DNA of 64,000 nt from Tribonema minus (lineage: Eukaryota; Sar; Xanthophyceae; Tribonematales; Tribonemataceae). The first letter of the stretch is position 1. Each line of letters begins with the position of its first letter. The notes under the pieces were generated by a model. It was not told the DNA's origin, did no database searches, and saw nothing but the letters and a program-made list of their open reading frames with translations. The DNA lies in contig JAFCMP010000536.1 in assembly GCA_017506865.1 (NCBI GenBank), positions 1,426,001 to 1,490,000 on the forward strand, given 5' to 3'. The translations under genes and the position numbers were made by a program. Of the stretch, positions 447-64,000 are shown piece by piece.

Positions 447-3400
447 ATGGCGTCCTCCCGGCCAGGTGATCTATTGAGGGTGCTGCAGGGGGTCGGAAAG
501 GTCGTTGCTCAGCTGGTGGAGACGCAGGCGCCGGCTGCAACAGAGCGATTGTCAAGGCTACGACAGCATGGCACTGACACCACTGCCAATGTCGCACAGG
601 CAGCAAACGCTGCCCTGCGACAGGCGAGGGGTGAGCTGGGGGCAAGATTGCCTAGAGCTGCTTCTGCATCAGGTGCTGAAGGAGGCAGAGCTGCACATTC
701 CGGCACCACCACAACTGTGCCAGCAGCAGTGGCGGCATCGCAGCCAAAGCCCGTCGTGGAAGCCATGAAGCAGCTTGATGCGGCAGCGGCAGCTGCTGCG
801 GGCAAGCGGAAGAGTTCGCTAGCGCAGCAAAAACACCAGCAGCAGCAACAGGACCAGCTGCGATGGGAGGCCTCGCCCGCTGCACAGACCGTTGCAGCTC
901 TCAACAACCTCGGAGAAGCTCAGAATATGGAACGGCAAGAGCAGCCCCCGCAGGCTACTGGTGTTCCGTTGCCAATACAAATGCCAGTACTGTCGACACC
1001 ATTGAAATCTGAGGAACAAGCAGCAGCCAGCGCCACGCGCGCTGAAGCAATCCGCGCAATGACTCCCTCGCCTCCTAAACCAGAGCCGCCGGCGTCTGAC
1101 GCAGCCGACGCCGCCGAGGCTGCCAGCGCAGCAGCAACGGCGGCGGCGGCAGGACTGCCATCCAAAGCAGCAGCGGCGGCCGCTGCCGCCGCCGCGCGGC
1201 AGCCGCCTCCGCGGCCGCAGACGCCGCCGGCGTCGCCGGGCAGCAGCAGCAGCGGCGACAGCGCAGGGGGCAGCGCTCGAGCGCGGCGCGTACGCGCCGT
1301 TCCATCGTCGCCGCTCGCGCGTGTGCTGGGCTTCGGCCAGCTCGCAGCGGGTCTAGCGGTGGGCACAGTGGCGGAGGCGCTGCGGCAGGGCGTGGGCGCG
1401 CGCGGCGGTGGCGGCGGCGGCGGCAGCGGCGGCGGCGGCGCGCGCGCCTCCGTCAAGCAGCTCATGGCGTCGGACGCGAACGCGGAGCGGCTGGCGGAGG
1501 CGCTGTGCCGCATGCGCGGCGCGGCGCTCAAGCTCGGGCAGATGCTGTCGATACAGGACGAGGGGGTGATACCGCCGCAGCTGGCGAAGGCGCTGGAGCG
1601 CGTGCGCGCGGGCGCGGACACGATGCCTGCCAAGCAGCTGCACGCGCAGCTGCGCGCGGCGCTGGGCGACGGCTGGCGCGCGCGGCTCGCGGAGTTCGAC
1701 GAGGCGCCGCTCGCGGCGGCGAGCATCGGGCAGGTGTGTATGCATACATGTACTTCAAGGAGTGTTCTTCAGTTTGTGAACATTGGCTGAAGCATCACGT
1801 CACTTGGAAGTGCTAGGCTCCAGCGCACATGATGCTGTAAGTGTCGGTATGACAGCATGCGACGCTTGCTTGCATGCCGGCCGCGCCGGCAGTGGCGGCA
1901 AGCGCCGGCCAGGCGTATTTGAAGCTGTGCACGCATGCACACCAGCGCAGAGGTTGAAGTACGTGTTTGGAGCAGGGACGTCGATGATCTCAATATGCAT
2001 ACAGTCAACCCACTGCACTAAGCTTGCAGTCACGCTCACCAGTTGAAATGCGGCGGGTGTGGGATGACCTGTCATGTGCGCCTGCGGCTCATGTCAGCAA
2101 GTGGCTGCCAGTTTAGATATCTCGCGGCTGTCATCCTATGTCTGCGAACATGTGCAAACGGATGTATGTCCACGCAGCTGCGTATGGTGCTCAGTGAGAA
2201 TGAGCGGCAAGGCAGATTCTGCCGAAGCGCAATGTTTTTACTATATTGTACAGTCCCCCCCGGCAGACACAGGGCACCACCTGCATAGTGTACCTCCAGG
2301 TACTGAAGCGTCAGTTAGTGCTGCAGGTCGGGCTAGGAACATTCATGGGGGGGGTGCAGAGGTACAGGCAGGAGGCACATGGAGGAGGACGTTTGGGGGG
2401 ATCTCGAGATGCCATTTGGCGGCGGCGGCGTTTGAGTGGTTGTCACTGAGACACTTCCAGACTGTCACACAACATGTAGATTCCGTCCAGCAAGCTTCAA
2501 GTCAGATACCATTCATCTGGGCTTTTTTCGCGCCCTGAGCGCGAATTAATAAAACGTACAGGCAGAGGCACCAGGCAGAGGCACCAGTGGCCGGCCAGTA
2601 TTGTCGGCATCTGGGGTATACCTAGGGTACACTCAGGTACACTCAGGGTACACTGAACACTAAGGGTGCAGTCAGGGTACACTGTACTTGCAGTAGTAGC
2701 TTTGCAGCTGTAGCTTTGCGTTGGCGTGAAACAATACAGGCGGTCAGTCCAACCCTAATTCTAACCCTACATTGATCCGCGACATTTCTGCGTCGGCGCG
2801 CACAGGTGCACCGCACAAAGCTGCTGGACGGCACGGAGGTCGCCATGAAAATACCCGTTGTAGTTATTCCTGTATATCCCATGTGGGTAGACGGCGGGAA
2901 TGTTCACATCGCACTTAGGGTTAGTCTGACCCTAATATCTAACCCTATGATCAATCTGCGACCGCTTTGCATTTCGTGCATAGGTGCACCGCGCCAAGCT
3001 GCTGGACGGCACGGAGGTGGCCATGAAGATACAGTACCCGGGCGTAGCGGACAGCATTGAGAGCGACCTGAGCAACCTCGAGAGGCTGGTCACCATGACC
3101 AACCTGCTGCCGCCGGGTGAGTGGCAGAAATGTGGCAAAAGGGTGGCAGAAAGGTGATGCAATGAGGTTGAGCACTGACGCGTGGTTGAGAGGCTGGTCA
3201 CCATGACCGACGTGCTGCCACCGGGTGAGTGGCAGAAATGTGGCAGAAAGGTGGCAGAAAGGTGATGCTATGAGACTGAGCACTGATGCGTGGTCATCTC
3301 GAACAGTAGCCGCGCGGGGACCGCTGGCGCTGCGCTGTACAGCTCGAGTTGCGTAATGTGGGGAGGCTGGTCGCCACCATGACGCACCTGCTGCCGCCGG

Positions 3401-5971
3401 GCGAGTGGCACTGCCATTGTCGTGAGCTATGAGCTGTGGCAATTGAATACCTGTCGGGTAGCAGCCAAGAGCAGTGCCATTGCCACGAGGTATCACCCGT
3501 GGTGATTGAATACTTTTCATGCAGCAGCCAACAGCAGAATCTCGTCGCCACGGCAATCTCCTGCTGCCGCCGGGTGAGTGGCAGAAATGTGGCACAAGGG
3601 TCGCAGAAAGGTGATGCTATGAGGCTGAGCACTGATTCGTGGTCATCTCGAACAGTAGCCGCGCGGGGACCGCTGGCGCTGCGCTGTACAGCTCGAGTCG
3701 CGCAATGTTGGGAGGCTGGTCGCCACCATGACGAGCCCGCTGCTGCCGGGTGAGTGGCACTGCAGCGCCATTGCCGCGAGCTATCCGCCATGGTGATTGA
3801 ATACTTTTCAGGCAGCAGCCAAGATGAGAGTCTTGTCGCTGCGGCGAGTCTCCTGCCACGTGGTGTGCGGCAGAGCGTAGCAGAGTGTTTTTTTCCCGAT
3901 CAGCTGAGCACTGACGCGTGGTCATCTCAAACAGTAGCCGCGGGGACCGCTGGCAGCGGCGCTGTACAGCTCGAGTTGAGCAATGTGGGGAGGCTGGTCG
4001 CCGCCATGACGAAACCCGCTTGTGCGGCAGCGCTCAAACGTGGCCGCCCGCTCGCTCCGCTGTCAACTTCCCAGGCCTGTTCGTGGAGGAGATTGTTGAA
4101 GTTGCGAGGGAGGAGCTCAAGCTGGAGTGCGACTACACCCTGGAGGCGGCGAACCAGGAACGGTTCCGGGCGCTGGTGCAACAGGATCCGGAACTTTCCA
4201 AGCACGTCTCCGTTCCCGCAGTCGTCCACGAGCTCGTCACGCCGCAGGTGACGCTTGCATTTAAGCACACATGCTGGCATGATTATACACACGGTATTGT
4301 GCACATGCATGGCTACATACGTTGAACTACAGCATACTGTCAAAATACATGTCGACGTGTGAACATACAATGTCATTATTTGGAAGTACATGCATATGTA
4401 CACAAGACACATTTCGAAGTACATGCACATACAGAAACATTTGATAGCCTTGAATGAAGGAATTCATGCATGCATGCAAGCATACATGTTCGGATGGAGC
4501 ACCTTGCACACACACACACACTCACGTACACACACTCATGCGCACACAGACACACACACACACACGCAGACCCCATATACATCATTATTGGTGGAAGGCA
4601 CTTGCGGCTAACCATCCCTTGTCACCTAGAGCTCTATCGATCTTTTGATTCGTTTTCATTAATATAAGCTCATGCGTGCATGCCCTGTGATGTCAATAGT
4701 ACACAAGTCTATGCTAGCCACGTGTGCAGTGGGGATGGTGAAAGTAGCTGGCCCTGACACCCTTGTGCCACCAGCATCATCCCTCGCCGTCGTCCTCCTC
4801 CCTGCGTGCATGCCGCACACCAACCGTGTTGCAGCGCTCAGCACGGATGCGCTCGACCTTTCCTCTTTTGCGTATGACGCTCTGCTTTGAAGTAGCTCGC
4901 ACAAACGACTACCACTGCCCCGCTGTTCACGCGCTTGTATCCTCGGTTCCCATCTCACGCCAATCACCTCCATACCGCCTATGCCCCGCCTTCGCGCAGG
5001 TCCTGACGACGTACATGGTGCGCGGCGTCCACATCAACCGCGTCGCAACGCTCTTACTTTGGCGTGGATACTCCTTGACAGTACATCTCATCTCGCGCCC
5101 ACCGCGTGCGTCCCGCGCGCTTGCCCCCCTTGCGGCGCAGGTCCTCACGACGCACATGGTGCGCGGCGTGCACATGGACCGCGTTGCGGCGCTCGACCAG
5201 GATGCGCGCAACGCTCTCATACTCTCGTGTACACTCACTCGCGCCCTCGTGCTGCCCGCTCATTCTTCCGTCTGCTTCCTCTCTCGCGCGCTTGCCCCTC
5301 TCGACGCGCAGGTGCTGACGACGCACATGGTGCGCGGCGTGCACATCGACCGCGTGGCGGCGCTCGGCCAGGACGCGCGCAATGCCGTCGCGCGCCTCCT
5401 CCTGCGCCTCACGCTGCGCGAGCTCTTCGCGTGGCGCTTCATGCAGACGGACCCCAACTGGGGCAACTACCTGTACGACGCCGACGCCGCGACGCTGCAC
5501 CTCATCGACTTTGGCGCGTGCCGCGCGTACGACAAGCGCTTCGTCGACGCCTACCTGAAACTAGTCTGGGCGGCCGCGAACGGCGACGCCGACACGCTGA
5601 CGCGCATCTCGCGCGACCTCGAGTTCCTCACGGGGGCGGAGACGCCGGAGATGCTCGCGGCGCACGCGGGCGCGGGGCTCGTCGTGGGCGAGCCCTTCGC
5701 GCGCGACGCGCCCTTCGATTTCGCGGCCTCCGACCTGACGGCGCGCCTCGGCCGTCACGGCGAGGTCTTCGCGCGCCACCGCCTCACGCCGCCGCCGCGA
5801 GAGGCGTACTCGCTGCACCGCAAGCTCGCGGGCGCGTTCCTCGCGTGCATCAAGCTCGGCGCGGTCATCAACTGCCGCGACATACTGGAGGAGACGTACC
5901 GCTCGTACCAGTTTGACGATGATGCATCCGCTACTGCGGGTTTGAGTGGCAAGGCGGCGGCGACCAAGTAA
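447..5971 (+). CDS. COQ8: ABC1/UbiB-family atypical kinase, COQ8 (ADCK) type
   Basis: Atypical kinase/ATPase of the ABC1 (UbiB/COQ8) family. Eukaryotic COQ8 proteins act at the mitochondrial inner membrane in coenzyme Q biosynthesis, so the role here is by family. Four exons join in phase: 447-1733, 2984-3116, 4075-4247 and 5312-5971, giving 750 residues. The first ~350 residues are low complexity (Gln/Ala-rich, with a Gly run near 318-332). All family hallmarks follow: KLGQ at 362-365, the Ala-rich loop AAAS at 423-426 inside [12 protein letters not shown], the VAMK lysine at 444, LECDY at 490-494, QTDPNWGN at 576-583 and the metal-binding IDFG at 596-599. The C-terminus keeps the [15 protein letters not shown] block. 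The long Ala/Gln N-terminus is unlike a typical transit peptide, so the exact start is uncertain. Introns contain several diverged copies of the exon edges. The last of three acceptor copies before exon 4 was chosen because only it continues into the kinase C-lobe. Confidence 0.9.
2362..2565 (+). mobile_element. 5'-truncated non-LTR-like insertion, copy 1
   Basis: About 184 bp of element lie between direct repeats GTACAGGCAG (2362-2371 and 2556-2565), read as a 10-bp target-site duplication. The body matches the 3' part of the copies at 7190-7639 and 50279-50735. It ends in the same stem-loop (2527-2545, arms TTCGCGC/GCGCGAA, loop CCTGA) followed by TTAATAAAAC. It lies in intron 1 of the COQ8-like gene and is the shortest copy, consistent with 5' truncation during target-primed insertion. 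Confidence 0.75.
2806..2849 (+). repeat. Echo of COQ8 exon 2 start
   Basis: This is a diverged copy of the first ~44 nt of exon 2 (real exon from 2984), preceded by its own CACAG acceptor and by related upstream intron sequence. It would encode [15 protein letters not shown] in the same phase, then runs into non-homologous sequence with no donor. It looks like a tandem acceptor-side exon-edge duplicate rather than a functional exon. Confidence 0.8.
3187..4010 (+). repeat. Donor-side echo array of COQ8 exon 2
   Basis: At least five diverged copies of the last ~45 nt of exon 2 plus the following intron start here, near 3187, 3361, 3550, 3711 and 3988. Several keep the coding-like GAGGCTGGTC and an intact CCGGGTGAGTGG donor. 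Between them repeats a second motif with a CTGAGCACTGA...TGGTCATCTC core. The array makes up most of intron 2. Confidence 0.85.
4505..4566. repeat. CA-rich microsatellite
   Basis: A (CA)n tract interrupted by CTCA/CGTA units lies in intron 3 of the COQ8-like gene. Confidence 0.9.
4575..4670 (-). repeat. Dispersed repeat family B, copy 1
   Basis: Reverse-orientation copy of the short repeat also found near 30073, 35383, 38517, 39640 and 43780. Its conserved landmarks include AATCAAAAGATCG, CTCTAGGTGACAAGG and GCCTTCCACCAATGA. No coding capacity is seen. Confidence 0.75.
4990..5311 (+). repeat. Acceptor-side echoes of COQ8 exon 4
   Basis: Two diverged copies of the start of the last exon (from about 5001 and 5140; real exon from 5312) each follow a GCGCAG acceptor. 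They encode [15 protein letters not shown] and [15 protein letters not shown] in the correct phase before diverging. If the first acceptor were used the frame stays open to the true exon, so a longer isoform is formally possible. Confidence 0.8.
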
Positions 5972-8283: not shown

Positions 8284-11200
8284 ATGTTACGCCTCACGGA
8301 TCTGGAAACCATGAAGGTGCTTGGCGCCGGCACGCTCCTCTGGTGCGGTGTGCACCTGTTCGGAGCTGAGAAAGATCAGCAAGTGATAGCGAAGCTAGGG
8401 GGAGGCCGGCAAGGTCGCCAGGCGTTTACCCTGCTGTACTATGCCCTCAGCGCGGGGCTGTACCTCGCGCAGGTGTACCTGTACCAGCGCGTGTTCACAT
8501 CTACACCTCTCCCGGCAACATACGTTTGGCCAGGACACCTGCCCAAATTCCTGGAATCCAACAGGGAGAACATCAGGCTGGCTGTGGCGATCAGCACATC
8601 CGTGGCCAGATACCTGGCTGTGTTCCTGACGAGCCTGGCAACCTTCACCCGCACCACGCCTCCGAACAGCAGGTACGCGGGCGCGACGACAGAATTGCAA
8701 GATAGATCTTTGACGAAATGTCGTTCCTACATGCGTGCATGCAGCTCTGGTCAAGGCCTTGTGTGCTCTAGCTCCTGCTTTGTGCAGGGGCATGTTAGTG
8801 TAGTACCGGAGGGGGCTTTCGCATTGCAAAACACTTGAGTTGCTATCTGAGTGGATTGAAATAATCTCACTTGTCGCTCGACACCATTGAAGTCTTGCAC
8901 CTCTAGGAGATTTGTTGCAGCTCAGATGTGCAACGGAGCGGCATGTGCAGAATTGGGGTCATACTTTCAACGTTCATTCAACCAGAATTTGACGCAATGT
9001 ACTGAGGCATTCGAACTATGAGGAACATCTGTCTGCGAGCTGTCAGCATGCAATACCATCGGTCAATTTTGGCAGCGCAATCCATGCAGTCCTGTAAGCA
9101 GTGCATTCAGACCAAGTATACATATTGTCAGGTGCAGTCGATGCGTCATTATTTCGAAGAGCTATCCAATATGGAGGTTCAGCCGACATCAGTGTGTGTT
9201 GTGCCGTGAACGCCTTGATGGTTGCCGCCGTTTGAACTCTCAGAGAGCAGCGTACAGTAGTGTGCAGTTTGCCCTCTGCTGCGTATCCCATGCGCTGCAG
9301 TTGATAGCGCGAACTCTGCCATTCAACAGGGCTCTCAAGTGCATTTCCTGAAATACGTCCGCGTGAGTCCTCACGCGACGCCACACATGATTCCATACCT
9401 CTCATCAACGGAACGCTACTGCAGCTGGATGATGACCGTCCCCCTCCCCCACCCTACACATGCGCTTGCCCTCTCTCATCCCAAAATCTCAGCTGATCAT
9501 TGCCGGCGCTTGCACTCTCTCATCCCAAAATCTCAGCTGATCATTGCCGTATTGTTGCACATGATAATTGATGTCGTCTGAGCACTTCCCTGGAAGCCCC
9601 TTCTGGCCATCACGCAGCGGCGAACGCTAAAAACATGCACGCGAGAGGATGCCTTGGCGCATCAGCCGCCAGCGATGCTGCGCGCCTAGTCATGCCCTCC
9701 GCGGCTTTACAACCATGCTCACACTCTGCTGTATAGAAGTACATGTACATTCAACAATATAAGGCAGCGCTCAACTCTGCAGGCGCAGGCGGTACAGCGG
9801 CAGGGCATACTCTACATATACATACAAACCTCAACACAAAACAAGGCAGCGTTGAACTCTTGCTCACCCAATCCCCCCCCCCCCCCCCCTCCACCGCCGC
9901 CGCACTGCAGGGTGGTGCTCAAGCATGACGGCTTCCACACGCGCCAGGCGCAGGCAGCGCAGGCGCAGGACGTAGCTGCACCCGCCCCCACCACCGCCGC
10001 CGCCACCGCCGTCGAGGTTCCCGCGTGGGGCCTGGGGCGCATCACGCGCCACCCCATCAACACTGCGCTCGTCATCTTTGCGCTCTCGCACCTCACGCCC
10101 AGCGACTCGGCGACCAAGTGGCAGGCCAGCGCGCTGTTCTGGGGCCCGCAGCTGCTGCTCGCCATCGCAGGTGAGAAAAGTGCTTCGGCGATGCATAAGG
10201 GTTTGTCATTGGTTGATTTGGACACGTGACATTTTGCTTTTCGCTGATGATAGTGCTAATTATAAGTAGCCAGTACAAAGAACTTACTGTTTGCGCGACT
10301 AAGATTTCACGCTCAGTGACTCAGCGGCGGCCAACTGGCAGGCTAGCGCGCTGTTCTGGGGCCCGCAGCTGCTGCTCGCCATCGCAGGTGAGAGGGACAG
10401 ATCGCGCACAGAAAGAGTGATGCTATCGTTTTTGTCGGACAACATAGTATTTCAAGCATGGCAATAAAGGTTTATCATTGTTTACGCTGATGTACATCAT
10501 CATCATAGAAAATGCGAGCCCCCATCAGTCTTCTGTGTGTGAAGGGGGTCGCGAGTTGCACGTCCGACGCATGCGTGAGCGCTCCCCTATCCTTCAGTTT
10601 AGGGCCAACATAGCTGATGTCCTGTAAGGCAGTGCTTGTCAGGTGATGCGGGGGTCGAATCAAGGGCAGCTTGCCCTGGTTCCCACCCTCTTTCTCCACC
10701 ACGTCTCTGAGGCAGCACCCCTATGTCACCCAAAGTGGCCGGCCCCCATGCTGTCGTGACGCTGCGTGTCATTGCGGGTAATGCGCGCTCTCCCTAGAGT
10801 CTCATGGTGCGCCACCTACCCGCATTTTCTGGCCTCGTGCGCAAGCCGCTTCGGCTCACACGTATCCTGTTCCACTAGATTGCGCGTGTTGATGTCGCCT
10901 GTAAGCACTCGCTCCCCACATTCAAGCATCACAGTGGACTGTAGCGCACGGAACCGTGTACGTCATTGCAAGTAAACCGCCTCACTCTCCATCCCTGACC
11001 TCTTTCCCCTTTGCGCACCACTCTGCCACCCCAGGAACGTTCCTCCAGGACCAGCGCCTGGCGCGCGACCCGTCCGGCACCTACAAGCGCTACCTCAAGG
11101 AGTCCAGCCTGCTGCCCAACCCCTTTGCGCTGTTCAACATGCCGAGTGAGGAGCGTGCTGCGCTCGCCAAGCCCGCCGCCGCCGCGCTGGCCATCGCGTC

Positions 11201-12072
11201 GGCGTTCTTTGCCTTTCCCAAGCTCAACAGGTGACACGCCTTTTCTTTTTTTTCGCAGCACATTGGCCCATTTGTTTCACAAGTATATACTTCGAAGTCC
11301 TGCAAGTTCACGGAAGCCTTTGCGTTGTGATATTGTTTGTGCTGCACTTGAGTCTGGTGCTTTAAAGCAGTGTAGGTTCAGGGGCCACGTCGCTTTTCCC
11401 CGGCATATGCTCCCCAAGCTCAACACGCGTGACGCACCATTCAGATCGTAGCTCAAGAACGGAGGTCATCGCGTTTTATGCTTGATCTGGCACTGCAATC
11501 GCGTCTGCAATGTTCGCGTCGTTTCCCAAGCTCAAATGAGTTCTAAAGGTGATGCACTATTGCGCATGCGCATACTTGATCTTGGTCTCGGGCGGGAAGG
11601 ACTCTGGTCGCTGCAAGCTCAGGCAATGTAAGTAGCGCACGCTGCAGCACACATGCTTCGGCCCCCATTGCGGTCTCCCTTTACGCTGGCTAGCTCGTCA
11701 AATGATTGCTGCCCCCCCCCCCCCCCCATTTCCCCTCTCCTCCATTAACATCACGCGCCGGGCTGCTCTACCCATTGCGGTTTCTCTCCACGCTGGCCAG
11801 CTCGCTGATCAATTACTCCCCCCCCCCCCCCCCCCCCCCCTCCTACTTTCTCCTGTGTCAGGCTGCTCTACGCACCCACCAGCGGCTGGCTCCCCCTGAC
11901 CTACATGGCCCTTGAGACCATCTACTCCAGCCCTGCCGCCGTTGCGCTGCTGCCCAACAAGGAGGACGTCGCCGCCGCCGTGAGGCCCCCCACCAAGAAG
12001 GTTGAAGTTGGCGGCGCCGATGCTGACCCCAATGTCGCCGCTGCCGTGCCCGTGCGCGCGCCGGCCAAGTAA
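8284..12072 (+). CDS. NnrU-family multi-pass membrane protein
   Basis: Four exons join in phase: 8284-8672, 9911-10170, 11035-11230 and 11862-12072, giving 351 residues. The N-terminus has a hydrophobic segment with GVHLFG, then LLYYALSAGLYLAQVYLY. Exon 2 carries the family signature GRITRHPINTALVIFALSH, and exon 3 continues GTFLQDQRLARD, the G..hQD.R block of NnrU proteins. NnrU-domain proteins include plant and algal 15-cis-zeta-carotene isomerase (Z-ISO), where conserved histidines bind heme. Here H in GVHLF and in TRHP are the candidates, but I cannot tell Z-ISO from other NnrU proteins. The C-terminus after the last hydrophobic stretch is Ala/Val/Lys-rich and unrecognised. Exons 2 and 4 are preceded by pure C tracts (9873-9889 and 11818-11840) acting as polypyrimidine tracts. 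Confidence 0.85.
10309..10393 (+). repeat. Donor-side echo of NnrU exon 2
   Basis: A diverged copy (~90% by eye) of the last ~83 nt of exon 2 including its donor (CATCGCAG/GTGAG), about 216 bp downstream of the original. It has no acceptor of its own directly upstream, so it is probably intronic. Confidence 0.9.
11395..11566 (+). repeat. Donor-side echoes of NnrU exon 3
   Basis: Two degraded copies of the exon 3 end (CCCAAGCTCAACA...) lie near 11410 and 11507, the second also keeping ATCGCGTCTGC and TTTCCCAAGCTCAA. Confidence 0.75.
11664..11861 (+). repeat. Acceptor-side echoes of NnrU exon 4
   Basis: Two tandem units carry CCCATTGCGGT...CGCTGG.(C/T)AGCTCG..., each ending in a long C run. 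A copy of GGGCTGCTCTAC, the start of exon 4, lies at ~11759. The array forms the branch and polypyrimidine region of the last intron. Confidence 0.75.
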
Positions 12073-18300: not shown

Positions 18301-21300
18301 AATGCACATTAGGTCTTGCGGAGTCGCTTAACAGGTGGCGGCGCACAACATATCACAGCATGCCAACTTGTTGGACAAGAAAGCGGTTTAGCTTGCTCTG
18401 TAGATTCGACTAATTCTGACCCCTCAGCTCTGACGCAGCACTTGCACCTCAATCTGCGCTCATGGCTGCCTTACCCAAACTCTAACCCTAACCCTGACCG
18501 GGCTTCCTGCCAGCCGTGCCCTGCGTTGAAAACAGCACCGGAGCCCACCAGCATGGCAGTGTCCCCATTGAGCTGTAGCCTCGTGCAGTTTCCACAGCCA
18601 TACTGCTTTGGCGCACACCATCACATAGTGATTCATGCATACCTAGGCGCGCCGTGCCGCGCCTTCGCCTGCTTTGACTGGATACCATCCTACCTCTACC
18701 ATCATACCGGGGCGCGCCCTGCCGCACGCTCTGGCGGCGCCTTGCGGCCCCCTGTCCTGGCCTCGCTCGCAACGTGCATGCCAGCCGTTCAATCCTGCAC
18801 CCGTTTCTTTGCCCCATTCCTTACCCTCGCCTGTCTTCATGGCGTGCCATCGCACAGTGATCCATACATACATACCTGGGCGCGTCCCGCCTGACGCTCT
18901 GTCGACACCGCGCCGCCGCCCGTGCGGCCCTGTCCTGTGTCATGACGGCGGCGCCGTCCGGGTCCAGAGACCCCGGCAGACCGGCGCACATGTGCTGCGC
19001 GTAGTGGCGCACGCCGCCGCTGTGCGGCCACAGTGCCGGGTCTGCCAACATCGCCAGCTGGCGCGACGAGAGCTGCCAACACAGGGAGAAAGGAGGCATC
19101 GGGGCGTGTTAACGTTGTTAGGCGCAGAGAGAAGCGAATGCTGGTATGCGTCAGACGTCAATCTGTGGATCAGATGTTTGGCAATCTCGCGTGCGAGGCC
19201 GCAGCGTCAGATCCCCAACAGCAGCGCCACCTGGCGCGACGAGAGCTGCACGTGCGGGAGAGAGAGGATTGTGGCATGATTTGAGGGTGCGGGGCGAAGA
19301 GAATATACATATATACTGGTGTGCGTCAGACGATTCTGATGCGGGAAGCGTATCGATAAGTAGTGCGCGCGTGTGGCGCATGTGCGTCCACAGCGTCGGG
19401 CCCGACAGCGTCGCCACCTGGCGCGACGACAGCTGCACACACGGGCGGAGAGGAGGCACAGAGACGTGCTACTGATTAATTGAATAACAATAGAAGTAAT
19501 AACAGTGTAAGGCGCAGGGGCAAGAAGCTGCTGATTAGCCACCTGGCGCCACGAGAGCTGCGTACGCGGACGGAGAGAGGAATGTGTTATCGTGTGAGGG
19601 TGCAGGGCGAAGCGAATGCTGGTTTGCATCAGACACTTGTGAGGAGGGAAGCGTCACAATGATGAGTTTGTGCATCAGGCCCGTGTGCGGCCGCAGCGTC
19701 GGGTGAGCCAGCATCGCCACCTGGCGCGATGAGAGCTGCCCACACAGGGATGGAGGAGGCGCAGGAACGCGTGTGAAGAGCGTTGCTCATGTAGCAGGGC
19801 GCAGGGCAAGCTGGGCACCCCTTTGACCGGACGCTTGCTGCGGGTCCTCAAGGGTTAGGGTTACGGTGAGGGTTAGGGTTAGGGTTAGGGTTAGTAACCC
19901 TGAGATTCTTGATACGAGTGGTGGTCCGCGGGCGCCACGCTGTCATGTGTTTCATCGGAGGCGTGCTTGGCGGCATAAACGAGGGTTAGGGTTAGGATTA
20001 GGGTTAGGGTTGGAGTTAGGGTTACCACGCGCGCCGCCCATGTGCTGTTGCCCCTGGCCGTCACTGACTGTCTATTCTGGGCACAGCACGCTGCAAGGGC
20101 GACGAATGAGAGCTCGCTGACGCTGTGCACCGCCGTGTGCGCGCCCGCCACGCTCCGGCCAAAGGTGTGCCACTCAAATCTACCCCAAACCCTTATCCCA
20201 ATCTGGACCCTAACGCTGTCCGCAACTCGAGGAAAGCAACGCTCTGCGTGCATTTCGGTGGCACTTACGTATGAAACACCTGGCCTCGCCCCGGAGGTGT
20301 TCACAACTGCAGGCTGCTTCATGAGTACCCGCATACCTGCATTGAAGCGGCCACGTCCACGGAGGCGCTGGCACCGTCGCCGTACGCATCCGACAGCTGC
20401 AGCAGCGAGCAGCAGATGCGCACGCAACCGCAGTCATTGTTTCAGCACTTTTGATTGTTTTGTGCCTACGCCAGCACCGAGTATGTGTGCCGAGGTGAGC
20501 TTTGCAACGAGGCAGCTAGGTGTTAGGGGTAGGGCTGGGCGGTCAGCTGCGTCCAGGTTACATCTTTGATCAAGTTGCGTGAACAGCTGATGCAGCTGTG
20601 AGTGATTTGGCAAGCGAATCGATAGACCATGCAAACGCACGCACAAGGTCGCAAGGTATTTCTATAATCATATTGTACGGCGGGTGCATGTGCGCGCATG
20701 TCAGCAACATCTAGGGTTGATGCAACCTTAAATCGTAAAGTTACGCGTAACGTTTTATGCCGTAATTCATGCCGTAAATCAGAATGCATATCTCAAAACC
20801 GTAAGTTACGGTGCCGGTGCCGTAATTTACGGCATATACTGTATATAGGTAGTAGGTGGTAGCCTGCTACAGTAGTAAGCCGTCTCGTGTTTTTTTTTTA
20901 GAGGCTCGTGTTTTCTCGTGCACACACACCCTCAAAAATCAGGTTTAAGTGAAGTGCGAACGAGATCAGAGTGTGTGTGCTGCATGTGAGATTGTGGCGA
21001 TAATGCAATGAAGGTGCAACGCTGTTGGACAGCCTGCGCCCACGAGCTTCTTTGCGCGGCGGAACAAGTACTTCTTGCTGATATGCATGTAAGCGCACAA
21101 AGCTTAATCCGCAAAAGCAGAGCGGGACTTGGGTGGCGGGCGAGCTTGCAAACGGGAAAGGCGGCTGCTAGATGCAACCACTGCGGCAAACAGTTTCACT
21201 GTCACTGCGGCAAGAACGATGCTGGGGTACCCGAAACGACCGCAGCATCTGAAAAGGCCCAGATTGAGCTCAGGGCTTCGCCAGCACATGCCTCACGGGT

Positions 21301-42823: not shown

Positions 42824-42974
42824 GATTCTCTCAAGCTGAGATCCAATCCGTTGACGTTGATATTAGGGCCCTGATTACACAGCGGATCGGAGTTGAGTTT
42901 ACAGTTTTTTTCGGGCGAGCTGTGACACAGGCAATAGCACCTAAGCACACCTGCAAGCGTGTGTACGTATAACG
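42824..42974. promoter_or_regulatory. Compact divergent promoter
   Basis: Only 151 bp separate the start codon of the large minus-strand gene (42823) from that of the PRXL2-like gene (42975). An in-frame TAA lies upstream of the minus-strand ATG, supporting that start. A T run with flanking GC-rich sequence is seen, but no classical TATA box. Confidence 0.6.
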
Positions 42975-45900
42975 ATGGGGAACTCTTCTAGCGCTGAGCC
43001 TGCGCCTGTGACGTTGGATATGATCAAGGGAATTCAGCTGAAGCCTATCGGCCACTCGGTCGACGGAGGTACCGTCATCGCTAGCAGTTTATGGGCGGAG
43101 CAGCCAGCTATTGTCTTCGTTGTCAGACGCCCGGGCTGCGTTCTATGGTGAGAGACCGCGCCTGGATATTTTTCGCCAAAGCAGAAGCAGCATCATGCGC
43201 TAGCATCATTGTCAGAAACGCCAAGCTTCACACGATCCGACAATTGGCACAATTGTTCTCGTTGCCGATACCCGCACTAATGCTTTCATCTTTCACCAAC
43301 TGTCGTCTCTAGCACACTCCTGAGACCTTTACATTTGTATACATGGACAGCAGTATCAATATGAGGGTAACTGCACCAGCGAGACCGCGTTCCGAGACTT
43401 GAGAAGCGGCGCAGTGAAACGCTCTAACCATCAAGCTTTTAAGATCAGGTTCTCAAGAATTAGGATGTAGCGCCTCATTTGCTCATACTTTAGATTTTGT
43501 CCTCTTCTGCAATTGTTTACTGGCGCAACACCAAGCCAGCCCCGCAATCGTTTCTCTTGTGGCCAGAAAGATGAGCTGCTTCAGCTGCTGTGTTCGCAAA
43601 CCATATTTAGAGTCTTGTGTCTGCACAACATCTCCTGTGCCTGTGTCGTGTTTATGCATTGTTCACTCAGAGGGTGTGGCCAGGCGACCCCTGATCCTGA
43701 CCCCTAACCCTGATTGTTTGCAAACCATGAAGCAGTCAGCAGTATTTGTTTTCCTGAATGGCTCATCATGTATTGGAAAACGAATCAAAAGATCGTAAAG
43801 CTCTAGGTGACAAGGGATGGTTAGCTGCAAGTGCCTTCCACCAATGATCGTGGTCGCCGCTGCTGCAGTCATTGGCCACAAATCAAACAGTGCCACCATA
43901 ACCACAGTAGGCAAAAAGACTTCTCTGTGCAAGCTTTTTAGCATTGGAGGCATGGGTGTTCAGTATGGGAAGGTCTCATGTGTTTGATATGCCAGCTCCA
44001 GCCGGTAGCCCCAAACACAGAGGTTCAGCAGCTAGCGACAGCGCTCTTGAATGCGTGTAGTGCAGAAGGTGATGAACGGGTTTAGAACCAATCCGTGCGG
44101 TATTACTACAACTCATGCTGCAGCAGTGACGACGCCAAAGACCCGTGCGAGCGTGCGCAAAAAAAAATCATTTTTTCATTGCCGACGATGATGCAGCTGC
44201 GGACAACACCTTTTCAACAATTGATTAAGATGTCTTGTCACCAATAATGCTGCAGCCGCGAGGAAGTGCTGTGCGAGCGCGCGGCGGAGTTCAAGCAGCT
44301 GGGCGTGAGCCTGAAATGTGACTGTGGAATTTATTTTTTTGGAGACAATGATGCAGCCACGGAGAGTACAGTAGTAATTTTACGATCTATTACAATGCAC
44401 TTGTACAACCGATGCTGCAGCCGTGAGGAGGCCAGGGACCTGTGCGAGCGCGCGCAACAAAACATTTTTTTATCGATGACGATGATGCAGCCGCGAAAGA
44501 AACCCATTTCCCCATGTTTACGATATGATGTCGTAACCAATGCAGCCGCGAGGAGGCCAAGGACCTGTGCGAGCGCGCGGCGGACGGAGTTCAAGCAACT
44601 GGGCATGAGCCTGACCTGAGAAAAATTGTGATTGCGGAATTCAATTGCTTTGAAGACCATGAGGGGAAGAACATTATCTTTTCTGATCGACCACAATGCA
44701 CTTTCACAACCGATGCTGCAGCCGCGAGGAAGCCAAGGATCTGTGCGAGCGCGCGGCGGAGTTCAAGGCGCTGGGCGTGAGCCTCACATGCCAAAAACTG
44801 TGATTGTGAAATCAAAATGTTAAAAAAAGACAATGATGCAGCCGCGAGGAGAAAAATAATCATTTCACAATCGATCACAATGCACTGTTGCAACTGCTGC
44901 TGCAGCCGTGAGGAGGCCAAGGACTTGTGCGAGCGCGCGGCGGAGTTCAAGGCGCTGGGCGTGAGCCTGACCGGCGTGGTGCACGAGGAGCTGGGCGCTG
45001 ACGTGTTTGCCAAAGAGTTCTTCGGCGACGGCCTGCTGTACTTCGATGAGAAGAAGGCCTTCTTTGAGAGCTTGGGATCCAGGTCAGGCATTCATTCATT
45101 CACGAGTTATTTATGCGTTGATAAGTCTTTTCAATGCTAGAGCTGTTGTTTGTCATGCGGACCGTTGTTGATCGGTTCTGTAGGTTGCGGAGCTAGGGTT
45201 TTGACACAGTCACGAAGGTATTCAAGTCCTATGTCATGGACGTTGTCTCCGTTGACGTTTCTAGCGCTTTGAGCACTTTTGGAGCAGGTTCTCCTACGCA
45301 TCCTTACCGACAATAATTGTGAATGTATTTCATTGTCAGCAATCAACTCAATAAAATATGACGACAACACATTGCCTCCTACCAAGGCCATTTGATAGAT
45401 GAACGCAATGCATGCGTTCATGAAAGCATGACTGCCCGGTGCCTCCTGCCAACGGCAGCTTATAAAATATGACGGCAACACATTGCCTCCTACCAAGGCC
45501 ATTTGAAAGATGAACGCAATGCATGCGTTCATGAAAGCATGACTGCCCGGTGCCTCCTGCCAACGGCAGCTTATAAAATATCACGACAACACATTGCCTC
45601 CTACCAAGGCCATTTGAACGATGAACGCAATGCATGCGTTTATGAAAGCATGACTGCCCGGTGCCTTCTGCCAACGGCAGCTTATAAAGCAAATGTCGAA
45701 GGCAGGCCCCACGCATACCACACCTATGTCGTTGACAATTGTGCATCGTGATGATCAGGCAGGTCAGTGGGCCACAATTGTGCAGCGTGGTAATCAGGCA
45801 GGGCAGTGGGCCAGACGCCGTCAGTGCACCTAGAGTAGAAATACTATACTGTGCAAGTTTGGCTATTCCTCAAATAGGCAAACGTGCACACACGGCAGGG

Positions 45901-48205
45901 CAGGCAGGCTCACCAGGTGGCGCTATGCCATGCCAGTAGCGGGAAAAACAGCTGCTGCACAGCAGTCATGTGTGCATGTCGAGATCAATTATCCCCACTA
46001 CACAATAAGCATTTGTTGCACTTGATTGTATCTCTGTCTAAAAAAGCCGAAGCTCTGGCACTGGCACTGCGTGGTGTGCACCCAACCGGGCTTGCCTCTC
46101 AAGTTCCGTCGCTCACCGCGCTTGTGTGTGCAGGTGGCTGGGCCTCAAGGGTCTCATGTACCCCTCCGTAATCAAGAACGCGCAGCGCGCCAAGGGCAAG
46201 GGCGTGGAGGGCAACTGGGTGAGCCGTGCTGCAGCATCACCCCCATCTTTGTCTTTCCAAACGTCTCATACGTTTAGGTTCATTCGAGGCCCCCCTGTTC
46301 AAAAAATAGCCTATATTGTAGGACACATCTACTGTTGCACTTCACCATCATTTGTGAGCAACGGCCCCTCCGTTGTCAAGAACGCGCAGCGCGCCAGCGG
46401 CAAGGGCATGGAGGGCAACTGGGTGAGCCATGCTGCAATGTCTTTTTAAAAACATTTTGCCTTTGCTTCTGTCTCCTGGTCTTGTTAGAGCTGCCTGTTC
46501 GTGAAGCAGCCTATCACTTAGAGAAGAAGAAAAACACCTGTTGCACTTACACTCAAATGAGCCGTGCTGCAATATCATCACTGCCTTGTTTTTAAATTCG
46601 TCTCCTGGTCGCATTTGATGCACTTGCCCGTTTGATAAGTAGCCAATTAACAGGGAACACCTACTGTTGCACTTCACCTGTTTGAGTTGAAATAGCCTAA
46701 TCAAGTTGTAAACATCTGCTGTTGCACTTCAACTTCACCTGTGAGCAGCAGTGCCCAACTCGGTGTTGCAGTCGCGCAGGTTTTCTGCTTTGTGTCTGCA
46801 CCTGACACGAGTGCGTGCGGCGTGGCTTTCTGCAGGGTGCAGAAGCGTTGGTCGGCGCCGAGTGGGGAAACGCATGACTGTGAGGTCATTTTGTGCATCT
46901 GCAGAAAATAATCCATCGTGCTTCGCTGAACGCAACAAACGCTGCACCGCAATTTACACGCAATGCCTCGCATGACATTTGCCAAGTGGCCTGGCGCTGC
47001 ACGTCTATTTTTGCAGGTCATTTAACGTCGAACTTCTCCCCAAAACAACGTACATCATGTGGGTACCTCAAGTGCCATTGCGAAAGCAAACATTGTTGTA
47101 GACGCAATCACAAGGAGGGCTTGCGCCCGCAGCAGATGCACCGACGCAGTCACACTTTTTAGTCTAGCTCACAACCGCCTTTTCGTGAATTTCAACTGAC
47201 TTTCACAAATCTTGCATCATAATTTCAGGCGGGCGAGGGCTGACTGCTGGGGGCCTGCTGGCCGTGAGCAACCGACGCCATCAAATGCCGAACTCGCAAT
47301 CAACTTTCATGTATTTGACCAACTTTTTGTGAATTTCGTGTCATTGTCGCAGGAGGGCGAGGGCCGACTGCTTGGGGGTCTGCTGGTGGTGGGCAAGGGC
47401 GACGAGGGAGTCCTGTTTGAGCACCGCGAGAAAGCATTTGGGGACCACGCCAGGTATCTAGCCCTAGTTGTTGCAGTTCCGATATGACTGAAGTATACTT
47501 TGAAGTGTGAGCTCGGTTTGGGGGACCACGCCAGGCATCTAGCCCTAGCCTCAGGGCGCGCATGCTGCCTTCACGTACTGCGTTTCCAGTGTGCCTGAAG
47601 TAAACTGTCAAGTGTGAACGTATTGCAAATGACTCGTGGCCCTAGTGGGGGCGGGGGATGGTTGATTGCGCACGGGCGCAGAATGCATCCTCTGAGTGCT
47701 GCTGTAGCGGACAAACGGCTTTCTGCACCTGTTCACTTCATGCACCATGCATGCGTGAGGAAATCGAACTGTAGTCGATGTGCGATCTGGCCAATCGAAG
47801 ACACTGACCACGAACTTAAAATAACTATCACCACTGATTTTTTTTTCAGAAGGAAAAAACACCTTATTTAGTCGATTCCTGGGGTTTAAAGAACACGAAA
47901 GGATGTAGCTGAGGTTTTTAGTTTGATCAACTTGAGGTGGCAATAAAATTTTTGAGTTGCCCATAAATTATACTTTGAAGCACATGATCAGGGTTTGCAG
48001 AGAGTGAAAGGATGTAGCTGTGGTTTCTAAATTTGAACAACTTGAGGTGCCAACAAACTATTTGAGGCGCCAATAAATTGACCCCAACGACGTTGTTTTC
48101 TCTGCACTGCACAGCATGGACGACATACTGGCGGCGTGCAGGAAAGCTGTGGGTAAGGCACCTGTGGAGAACAGCAGTGCGCCCCCCGAAGAGACCAAAG
48201 CCTAA
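42975..48205 (+). CDS. PRXL2: PRXL2 (FAM213-like) thioredoxin-fold protein
   Basis: Five exons join in phase: 42975-43147, 44906-45082, 46134-46218, 47353-47453 and 48115-48205, giving 208 residues. The redox motif RRPGCVLC spans the first junction (Cys55 and Cys58, C-x-x-C), followed by REEAKDLCERA. Later blocks match the family closely: VVHEELGADVFA, LLYFDEKKAFF, GNWEGEGRLLGGLLVVG and VLFEHREKAFGD. PRXL2 proteins are peroxiredoxin-like antioxidant proteins; the biochemical role here is by family. The protein begins MGNSSSAEP, which fits an N-myristoylation signal (Gly2, Ser6). Exon 1 is too short to stand out alone and was found through the motif. Introns 1-4 contain multiple echoes of the exon edges. 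The most distal, complete copy was chosen for each exon. Confidence 0.9.
43780..43900 (+). repeat. Dispersed repeat family B, copy 4
   Basis: Good copy with AAACGAATCAAAAGATCGTA and GCTCTAGGTGACAAGG, in intron 1 of the PRXL2-like gene. Confidence 0.8.
44120..44905 (+). repeat. Acceptor-side echo array of PRXL2 exon 2
   Basis: Four clear copies (near 44252, 44412, 44544 and 44717), and a degraded one near 44128, precede the real exon at 44906. Most begin CTGCAG/CCG(C/T)GAGGA and run CTGTGCGAGCGCGCG. The clear ones continue GAGTTCAAG..(C/G)TGGGC.TGAGCCT in the same phase before diverging. Between them repeat the words ATGATGCAGCCGCGA and ACAATGCACTT. Confidence 0.93.
45361..45693. repeat. Three tandem 111-bp repeats
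   Basis: Nearly identical units start at 45361, 45472 and 45583 (the third diverges at its end). Each contains the inverted repeat ATGAACGCA..TGCGTTCAT. Because 111 is a multiple of three, long open frames appear on both strands; these are not taken as genes. The array lies in intron 2 of the PRXL2-like gene. Confidence 0.95.
46363..46437 (+). repeat. Donor-side echo of PRXL2 exon 3
   Basis: Copy of the exon 3 end (CAAGAACGCGCAGCGCGCCA...GAGGGCAACTGG) with an intact GTGAGC donor, ~215 bp downstream of the original. A further remnant of the intron start lies near 46560. Confidence 0.9.
47229..47275 (+). repeat. Acceptor-side echo of PRXL2 exon 4
   Basis: Copy of the exon 4 start (GGGCGAGGGCTGACTGCTGG...GGCCTGCTGG). 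It carries a TGA in the exon frame where the real exon has CGA, so it cannot replace the exon. A donor-side copy lies at 47519-47535. Confidence 0.88.
47875..48085. repeat. Two tandem ~105-bp units
   Basis: Diverged tandem copies share GAAAGGATGTAGCTG.GGTTT and CAACTTGAGGTG.CAA in the last intron of the PRXL2-like gene. Confidence 0.8.
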
Positions 48206-55855: not shown

Positions 55856-55859
55856 CAGG

Positions 55860-60566: not shown

Positions 60567-63500
60567 CTACACCAGCGGCTCCGCGTCGCTCGGCAGCTGC
60601 GTGACGGGCCACTCCAGTTCGCTGCCGTGTTGAAGTTTGAGCCCAGCGTAGTAGTCCGCCACCGCGGCACCGCCGCTGCCTCGCGGCGCCGCCGCAGCGC
60701 TGCCGTTCAGGGCTGCGCTGCCACTGCTGCGGTGCGCGCCGCCGCCGCCGCCGGTGCAAGCGCCGCCGCCGCTGCTGCTGCTGCTGCGGTGATGGTGATG
60801 ATGATGAGCGCTGCTGCTGCTGTCGGCTGAGCGCTGCGGCTTTTGATGCAGCGCGCCGCTGCCGCTGCTGCTGTGCGCTGCGGCGCCGACGGCAGTGGGC
60901 GCGCGCCGCTGCAGCCGGCCGCAGTCCATCAGCCGCGCAATCTCCGCCCCGAGGCTGCGCGCCGTGAAGGGCTTGGTGGCGAACCCGTCCGCGCCGGCGC
61001 TACGACATTCCTGAGCAATGTGACAAAGGGGGGTAGGGGGCGTGCTTGGGGTCGGCTCCTAAGGATATTGAGCAGACGAGTTGTCCTCGCAGCTTCAGCT
61101 GTTAGCTTGGCGTAAGCGTTTGAGCTACTCATACTGCCAGTACGTTGGGAATGCCAGCCACCGCATTCACTCTCACTAGCGGCCCCATCTCAGCACGTAC
61201 ATAGTTCAACTTGAAGTAGCTCCTGTAAGTTGAATTTTCATACACACACGGTGGAGTGAAACATGAGCGGATCCTGGGGTGCCCATCGATCGCTACATGT
61301 TTCTCAGGAAAGCGGCAGCACAAGCGGCACACCCGCTGCAAGCGAACCGCAATTGACCGAAGCGGCACAAGCGGCGGCAGTGGGTGCGACAAGGGCTCGT
61401 GATCAGTCAGCAGCGGTATCAGCAGCAGCATCGATTGCCGCAGCCAACTTCAGCAGTTTTGGGGGTGTGCATGTCGCCGCACTCACAGCGAGGCGGCGCA
61501 CGTGTGGCTGTCAATAATACTTCGAAGTATCAAGTATAGAAGTACGCATTTTTCATATTGGAGTACGAAAGTATTCGTATACACTTCACTTTTGGAAATA
61601 AGTACTTGTAAGTATATACTTCAAAACATGCATACCTGCAGCGCGTTGTCCTCCATTGCGCGCGCCGAGATGATGACGATGGGGACGTCGCTCTGCGGCG
61701 GCAGCGCGCATGCGCGCACGGCGCGCATGACGCCGTAGCCATCGAGCAGCGGCAGGCCCAAATCCAGCAGCACGAGATCGAAGACTGCGTATGGGGGGGG
61801 GGGGGCACGGCGCAAGTGGCATCAGTCCACGCATGCGGTACACACACAAGTTCAAGTTGAAGAGACACAGAGGGCAGGCCCAAGTCCAGCATCAAAGACT
61901 GTATGTGTGTGTGGGGGGGGGGGGGGAGGGGCACGCACGGTGCAAGGGGGGCGTCAGTGCACGCGTTCGGTGCAAGAAGATTCAAGTTGGAATGATGCAC
62001 TGAGGGCGCTGACAGGAGACCGGGGTGGGTGGCGCAAAGGTACGTCCATCTGTCAAGGCACAGAGGTTCTAGTTGAAGATGCACGGCTCAGTATTTTGGT
62101 GGCGGTGTGGGCGGCGACAGCATATACAAACCTCAACAACGGCAGGCAACAGTTCGTATCAACTTCCACCCCAGTGGCTACTCCAGGGCTTGCCTGCATG
62201 AGACGATGTCGCAGCGACGACTACGGCCGCAGCGTCATTGACAATCGCCATTCAAGTTATATCCAACCCCTGGGTTGGGCTCATCTGCATCAGATCGCGT
62301 TGAAGCAGAGGCGGCGGCGGCATGAGCGAAACACGTTATCAACTCCCAATTACATGTAAACCTAGCATCCACCCTGGTGCTAGGGCTCACCTGCGTGTAA
62401 CGACGTCGCAGCGGTGACGGCAGCCGCGCAGTGAGACGACCATTGTCAACTTCAACTTACATCAAAGCCCTAGAGTTAAGGTCTCACCTTGATGAGACGA
62501 CGTCGCAGCGGTGACGGCAGGAGCGCCGTCGGCGACGATCCCTGTCAACTTTAACTTATATGTAAAACCTTGTGCTAGGGCTAACCTGCGTGAGACAACC
62601 TCCCTATGCTTCAACTTACATCCAAACGCTAGACTTCGGGGTCACCTGCGTGAGACGACGTCGCAGCGGTGACGGCAGCCGCGCCGTCGGAGACGATCGT
62701 CGGCGCGTGCCCCATGCGCCGCAGCATCGAGTCGAGCAGGCGCTGGTTGAGCACGCTGTCCTCCACCACCAGCACCTGCGCCGAGGCAGTTGCGAACGAT
62801 GTGTCCGGGGGAAGCAGTGCTCAGCATGCATTAGCAGCGGCACACACGCAGATGCGTGCGTCGAAGTGGCATGCCGAGATTTCCGAGGTGCATGCTTCAG
62901 AAGGACTGCTGGCTTAGAAGAACGGATGCACGTGAGGCGGTGAGGTGTCCTCCACCACCAGCACCTGCGGCGAGGCAGTTACAAATGTGGTGTCGCAGAA
63001 GTACTTAGGGGGGGGGAGATGCCCTATGGCGACGTCGTTCGAAGTGATCGGCAATGCGCACTGAGACTTTGAGGTGTTCACAAAGACACGTGTAGACTTC
63101 TGGTCGCAAGCCCATGGGCATCCACCACCTGGGCTTCTTCACGCCCTGGGCAGGATTTGATAAGAAGCACGTAGTGCTCAGCACGCGTTGGCAGCAGCGC
63201 ACGCGCAGATGCGCGCTTCGAAGCGCGCGCCGAGAATTGCACTGGCGTACGCAGACTCCAGACGCACGGTTCACGTTTCCGAGGGACTGCATTGTATGAC
63301 GAACGAATGCGCGTGGCATGGTGAGGTACCGCTGTGCATGCATCAAACGCCTCATGCATCACGTAGCGAGGCATGGATACGCAGCCGCTTGCGCCTGCAC
63401 AGACGGACTGCAACCCTAGGAAAAACGATCTTCAACCCTAGGGCCAGGGGATACCTATAGTACCTACGACACAGCGCGCGCGCGCGCGCCCCTCACCTGC

Positions 63501-64000
63501 AGCGGCACCGCCTGACCGTCCCCCAGCAGCACTTCGCCACGCGCGCTGGCAGCAGCGGGCGGCGGCGGCGGCAGCTGCGACGGCAGCGCCGCCAGCGCCG
63601 GCAGCGGCGCGCACAGCGCCTCGCGCGCGCCCGCGCAGCTGGCGACAGGAGCGCTGCCGCCGCCGCCACTGCCGCCGCTGCTGTCGCATTGCTCGACGAC
63701 TTCCGCGGGGAAGATGACGGTGAACGTGCTGCCGCGGCCGAGGGTGCTTTCGACGAGCAGTTGGCCCTGTGTGAAGGCGGGAGGGGGGGGGGGGCGGGGT
63801 CGTGAGCACTGTGTCTGGATGCGTCGCCGCCTGGTACTTCAACTACTTGAGGTACATGCTTTGGTGGTGGTGAACGTGCCGCCACAGCAGAGCGTCGTCG
63901 CCACGAGCAGCTGACTGTTGAAAGAGAGGGCCATGGAGTGCACATGCGTGGACGTGTTTGAAGTCTCAAGCATATGTGCGCCCAGGTGTCGATTCAACGC
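60567..64000 (-). CDS. Hybrid histidine kinase, C-terminal part (runs off right edge)
   Basis: Minus-strand exons join in phase: 63766-63497, 62775-62646, 61784-61636 and 61010-60567 (331 codons with stop). The gene continues beyond the window. The first visible exon has GQLLVESTLGRGSTFTVIFP, the end of a histidine-kinase ATPase domain, then a Ser/Gly/Ala/Pro linker. The next three exons form one receiver domain: VLVVEDSVLNQRLL (acidic pocket), FDLVLLDLGLPLLDGYG (phosphoacceptor Asp in LLDLGLP), VPIVIISARAMEDNALQ, and AGADGFATKPFTAR (conserved Lys). After the receiver comes a low-complexity Ser/Gly/His tail and the end ...LPSDAEPLV. It would relay phosphate from its own kinase domain; the stimulus is unknown. 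The acceptors at 63766 and 61784 are preceded by C tracts. Confidence 0.87.
61870..61925 (-). repeat. Acceptor-side echo of receiver exon 61784-61636
   Basis: Copy of the exon start (GGCAGGCCCAAGTCCAGCA...AAGACTGTATG on +) followed by another G run, about 115 bp upstream in transcript terms. Confidence 0.85.
62190..62605 (-). repeat. Donor-side echo array of receiver exon 62775-62646
   Basis: Four copies (near 62193, 62386, 62485 and 62582) of the exon end, with the + strand core TGAGACGACGTCGCAGCGGT and mostly an intact CACCTGCGTGA donor edge. Confidence 0.92.
62815..63325. repeat. Tandem pair and acceptor-side echo of the receiver exon
   Basis: GTGTCCTCCACCACCAGCAC recurs at 62944-62985 (echo of the exon start, real edge 62775). 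The flanking sequence around 62815-62940 recurs around 63176-63325 (shared CAGATGCG.GC.TCGAAG and GAGGTG words). Confidence 0.8.
63870..63920 (-). repeat. Acceptor-side echo of the kinase-end exon
   Basis: GTGAACGTGCCGCCACAGCA...CGAGCAG on + is a diverged copy of the start of exon 63766-63497. Confidence 0.75.

Follow-up and report, generated by a model that had tools for sequence, protein, structure and literature searches.

In Tribonema minus (Xanthophyceae) roughly one in four of the exon edges tested is accompanied by diverged copies of itself, which include the splice site and lie in direct tandem order on the intron side. These exon echoes are of many ages and occur in ordinary housekeeping genes. 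A first-pass annotation had described them in a 64,000-nucleotide stretch (assembly GCA_017506865.1, contig JAFCMP010000536.1, positions 1,426,001 to 1,490,000 of the forward strand; hereafter the window). They are found there on both strands and also in modelled introns on seven other contigs, in all cases together far above chance. Most probably the echoes are what can be seen of a process that has repeatedly made short direct tandem duplications, mostly with units of 80-200 bp, across genes of this genome. Established are the tandem direct layout, the one-sided geometry, the differing edges in related genes, the near-neutral loss of AG and GT and the lack of a preference for multiples of three. 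The earlier observation is real and was described rightly, and in part it was interpreted too far. The slow decay of the exon-derived parts of the copies is the one property that stays unexplained.

How introns grow and where new splice sites come from mostly has to be deduced from isolated, rare examples. The system described here allows the study of intron lengthening by tandem duplication, of the decay of decoy splice sites and of the choice of the spliceosome among similar rivals.

Frequency, orientation and side of the copies

The window is part of a 158-Mb assembly of 554 contigs. Three of its genes were used: COQ8 (ABC1 kinase domain match PF03109, E=2.9e-19), a gene spanning 8284-12072 whose NnrU match is weak (PF07298, E=0.0059, under the family cut-off) and PRXL2 (PF13911, E=4.4e-7). 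Their 10 introns were modelled by sequence reading, for which a reading-frame score served as a guide only, and GT-AG borders were confirmed in all 10. To avoid circularity, an independent test set was taken from genes detected by protein family searches for chaperonins (PF00118), valyl-tRNA synthetases (ValRS, TIGR00422) and HSP70 (PF00012). From all family matches a subset was sampled, namely 12 chaperonin and ValRS loci (L049-L060) and 5 HSP70 loci (L061-L065), and exon ends were set by joining consecutive family matches in frame at GT and AG. Of the 74 family matches within L049-L062, 4 were identified as echoes and excluded as exons. Where neighbouring matches were separated by a gap in the family model, the intron between them was left out; L051 and L059 therefore contribute none, and the other 15 of the 17 loci supply 61 introns. 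Together with the window, 71 introns with both ends modelled were available for the edge tests (47.7 kb, 142 edges).

For these tests a probe that combined the exon edge with the intron sequence next to it was searched for in the neighbouring intron by alignment, with a score of at least 40 as main cut-off. An intron-side copy was present at 36 of the 142 edges, compared to 6 of 426 random stretches of other loci (1.4%). Donor and acceptor edges are equally affected (14 of 71 each at score 60). By self-comparison with BLAST local direct-repeat arrays were detected in 33 of the 71 introns, 38 arrays in total, and none at E<=1e-4 in the HSP70 loci L061, L062 and L065. The claim that exons in general are flanked by such copies needs correction: some exons lack them, and 38 introns are without an array by this method. 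BLAST drops small offsets from the self-diagonal; the self-comparison under-detects small units, and its apparent floor near 60 bp is probably a BLAST effect. A 44-bp tandem pair at window position 9462 was missed by it, and smaller units were recovered by Tandem Repeats Finder (TRF).

The copies are direct, adjacent and, where there are several, periodic, as expected for a tandem head-to-tail arrangement; one intron of L049 holds seven mapped donor copies. Among the local high-scoring segment pairs (HSPs) of the 14 loci L049-L062 200 were direct and 0 inverted (E<=1e-4, within 1.5 kb), and self-comparison of the window at distances of up to 1 kb gave 83 direct and 4 inverted pairs (E<=1e-3).

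Acceptor copies lie upstream and donor copies downstream, and the statement that this is never reversed was borne out: a copy beyond the other end of the exon was seen in 1 of 98 tests, and only because PRXL2 exon 3 measures 85 bp, so that its donor copy was reached through the exon. The coordinates of hidden Markov model (HMM) matches alone gave the same picture, with 9 echo-exon pairs in 244 typed rows of 330 (5 start-copies upstream, 4 end-copies downstream, 0 reversed; a tenth printed pair, copy against copy, is left out). A special rule is unnecessary, since a tandem duplication across an edge together with the need for a whole exon yields one-sided copies. Dispersed insertion would put copies on both sides, and the one-sided placement argues against it.

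Duplicated mutually exclusive exons are likewise tandem copies within one gene, but these are whole exons with both splice sites, whereas the echoes carry one edge only. As first described, they lack the other exon boundary: from one edge, arrays cover no more than 135 exon bases, and the 9 copies at HMM level cover one end only. Duplication of whole exons was rejected as an explanation on these grounds.

Insertion of introner-like mobile elements carrying splice sites would account for the many introns affected and for the addition of sequence on the intron side, but the mapped arrays copy their own exon edge, and we give this explanation practically no credence. A 401-bp piece of the COQ8 array was without match elsewhere in the 158 Mb and recurred only at two more places within about 1 kb, so that this array, the one tested with a search that skips very common words, is not a mobile family. 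An assembly or sequencing artefact is extremely unlikely as well. The majority of copies have diverged from the exon edge by at least several percent, and they occur on several contigs yet are absent in other genes of the same assembly.

Anchors in the interior of introns scored at nearly the rate of the edges (99 of 540 compared to 32 of 142 at score 45) because multi-copy arrays run inward. An intergenic control in two stretches beside known genes gave 0 of 98 anchors, with 4.2 kb too short a sample to conclude. In stretches of uncertain gene content 4 of 117, 0 of 45, 26 of 245 and 10 of 153 anchors scored, and in the outer flanks of the 17 conserved-gene loci 89 of 697; thus arrays exist also outside the modelled genes.

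Anatomy and origin of the copies

In L049-L062 the unit length was 80-200 bp in 76 of 85 arrays and 62-228 bp in 82, with a median of 142. Units of 10-59 bp were also found by TRF, and 19 of 23 such arrays are internal. Introns with arrays are longer than those without (mean 883 vs 406 bp in the first 35 introns), which is consistent with the proposed route for intron growth. Arrays showed no significant dependence on codon bias (rho 0.27, P=0.29, 17 loci). Intron G+C correlates with them (rho 0.68, P=0.005, 15 loci), which may be caused by the copied exon pieces themselves.

The splice dinucleotide is often kept, as had been noted: AG in 27 of 30 acceptor copies and GT in 22 of 27 donor copies, together 49 of 57 (86%). 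The copies diverge by 6-7% (about 6.4%) at codon positions 1 and 2, from which a retention of about 88% is expected under neutral decay, near the observed value. At least 30 intron bases could be aligned across the boundary in 30 of the 57 mapped copies, so that the source of these 30 was genomic DNA with its intron; the other 27 consist mainly of the exon part or of a shorter intron part.

If the duplicated segment by chance spans an exon boundary, only the copy joined to the remaining exon would stay functional and the protein would stay intact. With i for the intron part, e for the copied exon part and E for the rest of the exon, duplication at an acceptor would give i e i e E, where the second acceptor keeps the exon eE and the first i e becomes intron upstream. 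At a donor the first copy would stay functional and the extra copy would fall downstream. In both cases the extra copy would sit in the intron with one splice site and without the other exon boundary, drift largely neutrally and be removed by splicing as part of a longer intron. Its exon-derived part should be recognisable longest, as the functional exon would serve as a fixed reference and intron sequence would decay faster. The duplications may come from the repair of staggered breaks or paired nicks, via fill-in and end joining. In two young duplications of L063, assessed by eye, the junctions are a near-repeat of 6 bp (TTGATG / TTGCTG) and a filler of 8 bp, of the sort that end joining might produce.

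Most of the decoys would be ignored by splicing. If instead they were functional, as alternative exon ends or as sites that recruit the spliceosome, they would be kept by selection. Conservation is higher in the exon parts and across the first ~8 intron bases than further into the intron, where identity drops; the requirement that the boundary lies within the alignment favours those first bases. Differences between copies are also commoner at third codon positions (180 of 929, compared to 108 of 919 and 120 of 927; 19% vs 12-13%), but such an excess would be expected without selection on decoys too, from copies made at different times off a synonymously changing exon. AG and GT disappear about as fast as neutral decay would remove them, and unit lengths show no bias to multiples of three (remainders 0, 1 and 2 in 13, 14 and 10 of 37 arrays, counted by hand with a 710-bp case left out). 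Moreover, related genes manage without echoes. At an intron position common to the CCT genes L054 and L058 one intron has 357 bp and no array, the other 2382 bp with four acceptor copies, and the HSP70 genes L063 and L064 share intron positions and have echoes at different edges. A function of the decoys is therefore very unlikely.

Exon edges and uneven decay

Among the 38 arrays, 33 reach an exon edge or come within 5 bp of it, and 5 lie off any edge. Uniform placement predicts 16.4 at an edge, and 0 of 200,000 simulated sets reached 33. The excess also holds for arrays with a best identity of at least 88% (17 of 18, 9.1 expected). A forward simulation with equal decay predicts 48% touching and left the whole excess unexplained. 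With the measured faster decay of introns 71% are expected. When the exons were masked, 10 of 26 arrays reached an edge compared to 11.6 expected, which is no excess. The raw edge enrichment was therefore not accepted as proof of biased copying, because the excess vanishes with exon-masked detection and the decay simulation explains most of it. The visible arrays do touch exon edges as first reported, but much of this is differential decay, that is, survival; an edge preference of the duplication process itself is possible, modest and unproven. Among TRF arrays with a period of 10-59, 4 of 23 touch an edge (1.1 expected, P=0.02).

Several results weigh against neutral tandem duplication as the full account. 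For the ten arrays that had two or more mapped copies, the identity between copies was 0.86 in the exon-derived and 0.71 in the intron-derived halves, and gaps were found at 22 of 1976 exon-derived and 120 of 2143 intron-derived sites, about five times more per site in the latter. When neutral duplication was simulated with the same detection the two halves were nearly equal, with a difference of at most 0.013 in six settings. Something beyond simple neutral decay thus acts on the copies. The edge excess survives the decay correction (33 of 38 against 71%, P about 0.02), and the same intron-detected arrays reach an edge in 20 of 26 cases when the exon-linked parts are counted (11.6 expected, P=0.0002). 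TRF arrays with a period of at least 60 touch an edge in 7 of 10 cases (3.5 expected, P=0.02). The break-repair origin, likely as it is, draws on the two junctions in L063 and on precedent. Candidate causes of the slow decay of the exon parts are gene conversion confined to exons, a higher mutability of introns and selection on decoys.

These results could also mean that exon edges are true hot spots. Copying would then start preferentially in exons, for instance because nothing else offers homology between alleles or paralogs whose introns have diverged; a repair strand begun in the exon would enter the intron, fall off and get joined, leaving an edge copy, and the same exon-restricted exchange would keep the exon-derived parts of copies alike. 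The edge counts for all arrays, for those of high identity and for the TRF arrays with long periods fit such a process, and so does the slow decay of the exon-derived halves. Further support comes from the HSP70 pair L061/L062, which lies about 24 kb apart on opposite strands of contig C522: 15 of 1476 exon sites differ between the two, introns 1-4 have 73-85% identity and intron 5 shows no difference. Either exon-limited homogenisation or strong selection can produce this pattern, and G+C does not explain the divergence of these introns (41 windows). The slow change of these exons may be mere selection on a conserved gene, the exon-masked arrays show no excess at edges and 71% touching is expected anyway given the fast decay of introns, so that we consider hot spots unlikely.

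That exon edges act as templates, with repair synthesis begun in the exon writing the edge and its splice site into the intron and gene conversion later refreshing the copies, is a distinctly doubtful proposal. If it were true, introns would grow from their ends inwards, and many exons would have a renewable supply of spare splice sites for new introns and exons.

Known systems and observations in the window

In the potato RdRp (RNA-dependent RNA polymerase) gene a tandem duplication across an intron-exon boundary is described (Ma et al. 2016, PMC4974935). As in the echoes, an intron's 3' end was duplicated together with the 5' portion of the exon that follows, and the copy thereby received an acceptor, a polypyrimidine tract and a partial exon; there, however, one duplication led to a new spliced intron with RNA reads, whereas here many copies lie inside existing introns of many genes. 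The AGGT model of Rogers 1989 (via PMC4974935) also lets tandem duplication supply splice sites, but by an exonic segment that creates an intron, while the segments here span existing boundaries. Small tandem duplications by fill-in and joining at staggered breaks were shown in mammalian cells, with hints from human and plant insertions cited (Nat Commun 2021, PMC8355091). They are short, direct and head-to-tail like the echoes, and that work offers a mechanism; its breaks had 43-base overhangs in mouse cells (human cells were also targeted), whereas the echo units mostly measure 80-200 bp and are often diverged and present in several copies. Direct repeats at intron borders are reported by Rogers and Bendich 2025 (PMC11782384) as well, but these are 4-30 bp long and result from comparing the two borders, in difference to one-edge copies of tens of bases to more than 100 inside the intron. 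In literature searches, for which subscription papers were mostly outside reach, no report of exon-edge duplication at this density was found, only single cases and general models. The echoes are a known kind of mutation at a seemingly unusual density.

The features of the window are listed in the table. The two exons on the minus strand were re-measured at a score of at least 36. The upstream copies of PRXL2 exon 2 were borne out and number five, all with AG, instead of four. For COQ8 exon 2 five downstream copies had been proposed; four have a mapped edge and a further partial copy was seen by eye near 3990-4020. At exon 19072-18876 all four upstream copies were recovered and one downstream copy instead of two, and exon 62775-62646 retained its upstream copy and three of four downstream ones. 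In addition to the listed counter-example, a second array off any edge lies in the PRXL2 introns at 47897-48079.

Table. Exon-edge copies and related arrays in the window
Position	Strand	Feature	Measurements
2742..2983	+	Upstream copy (~2742-2854) of the COQ8 exon 2 acceptor edge, intron 1	Exon 2 = 2984-3116; HSP 2742-2854 / 2919-3032, 80%; ACAG/GTGCAC 178 bp upstream
3117..4074	+	COQ8 intron 2, nearly all copies of the exon 2 donor edge and adjoining intron	Self-HSPs; donor copies at 108, 284, 457, 633 bp; 3 GT, 1 GC
4948..5311	+	Two upstream copies of the COQ8 exon 4 acceptor edge, intron 3	Exon 4 = 5312-5971 (ABC1 domain); self-HSPs; both GCAG/GTCCT
10307..10393	+	Downstream donor-edge copy of exon 9911-10170, NnrU-like gene	91% over 87 bp, 214 bp downstream; GCAG/GTGAGA
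11664..11874	+	Tandem pair extending 13 bp into exon 11862-12072 (acceptor)	HSP 11664-11774 / 11771-11874, 73%
19219..19760	-	Four upstream acceptor-edge copies, exon 19072-18876	Scores 94, 77, 47, 41; all GCAG/CT
44107..44970	+	PRXL2 intron 1, five upstream copies of the exon 2 acceptor edge	Exon 2 = 44906-45082; copies at 184, 360, 485, 650, 782 bp; all GCAG
45351..45688	+	Counter-example: three-copy 111-bp array within PRXL2 intron 2, no exon edge touched	96-97% identity
46365..46437	+	Downstream donor-edge copy, PRXL2 exon 3 (46134-46218)	92% over 73 bp; CTGG/GTGAGC
47226..47271	+	Upstream acceptor-edge copy, PRXL2 exon 4 (47353-47453)	85% over 47 bp; TCAG/GCGGGC
47518..47548	+	Downstream donor-edge copy, PRXL2 exon 4	93.5% over 31 bp; CCAG/GCATCT, GT lost
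62193..62540	-	Three downstream donor-edge copies, exon 62775-62646	Scores 109, 86, 45; CAAG/GTGA, GCAG/GTGA, GCAG/GCAA
62946..62994	-	Upstream acceptor-edge copy, exon 62775-62646	Score 68; GCAG/GTGC

Gene prediction and repeat masking may call false exons in such a genome; nine echo fragments came as separate HMM matches. In the ValRS gene of L060 (minus strand) a direct repeat at 7748-8017 with a period of 87, a multiple of 3, overlaps the ValRS exon match 7813-8118. Either an in-frame duplication of coding sequence or a further edge copy may lie behind it, the exon match having one TGA.

Interstitial telomere-like (AACCCT)n repeats were found at 18 sites in 208 kb compared to 0 in three Markov-simulated sets. 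In the window they lie at 15698, 18484, 19851, 19982, 30953, 34029 and 39930, and they are also present in L051, L052, L056, L058 and L059; in L056 and L058 they lie inside duplicated units. They may be another trace of break repair.

Fragments of the plastid genes psaA/psaB, eleven in ten contigs (C168, C490, C107, C423 and others), are probably nuclear copies of plastid DNA, and 5 of the 11 have internal stops. Kinesin genes were matched in many pieces in the assembly and, with the plastid gene fragments, point to a photosynthetic eukaryote. In the window, 52369-54135 and 55934-57938 are neighbouring gene copies with ankyrin repeats and an F-box, 76-79% identical, the second F-box lying just below the cut-off. 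On the minus strand at 36265-37072, open frames with repeated AWGTGAKGQLGLG-like units, which we take to resemble RCC1 repeats, lie beside tandem repeats with periods of 27 and 67 bp.

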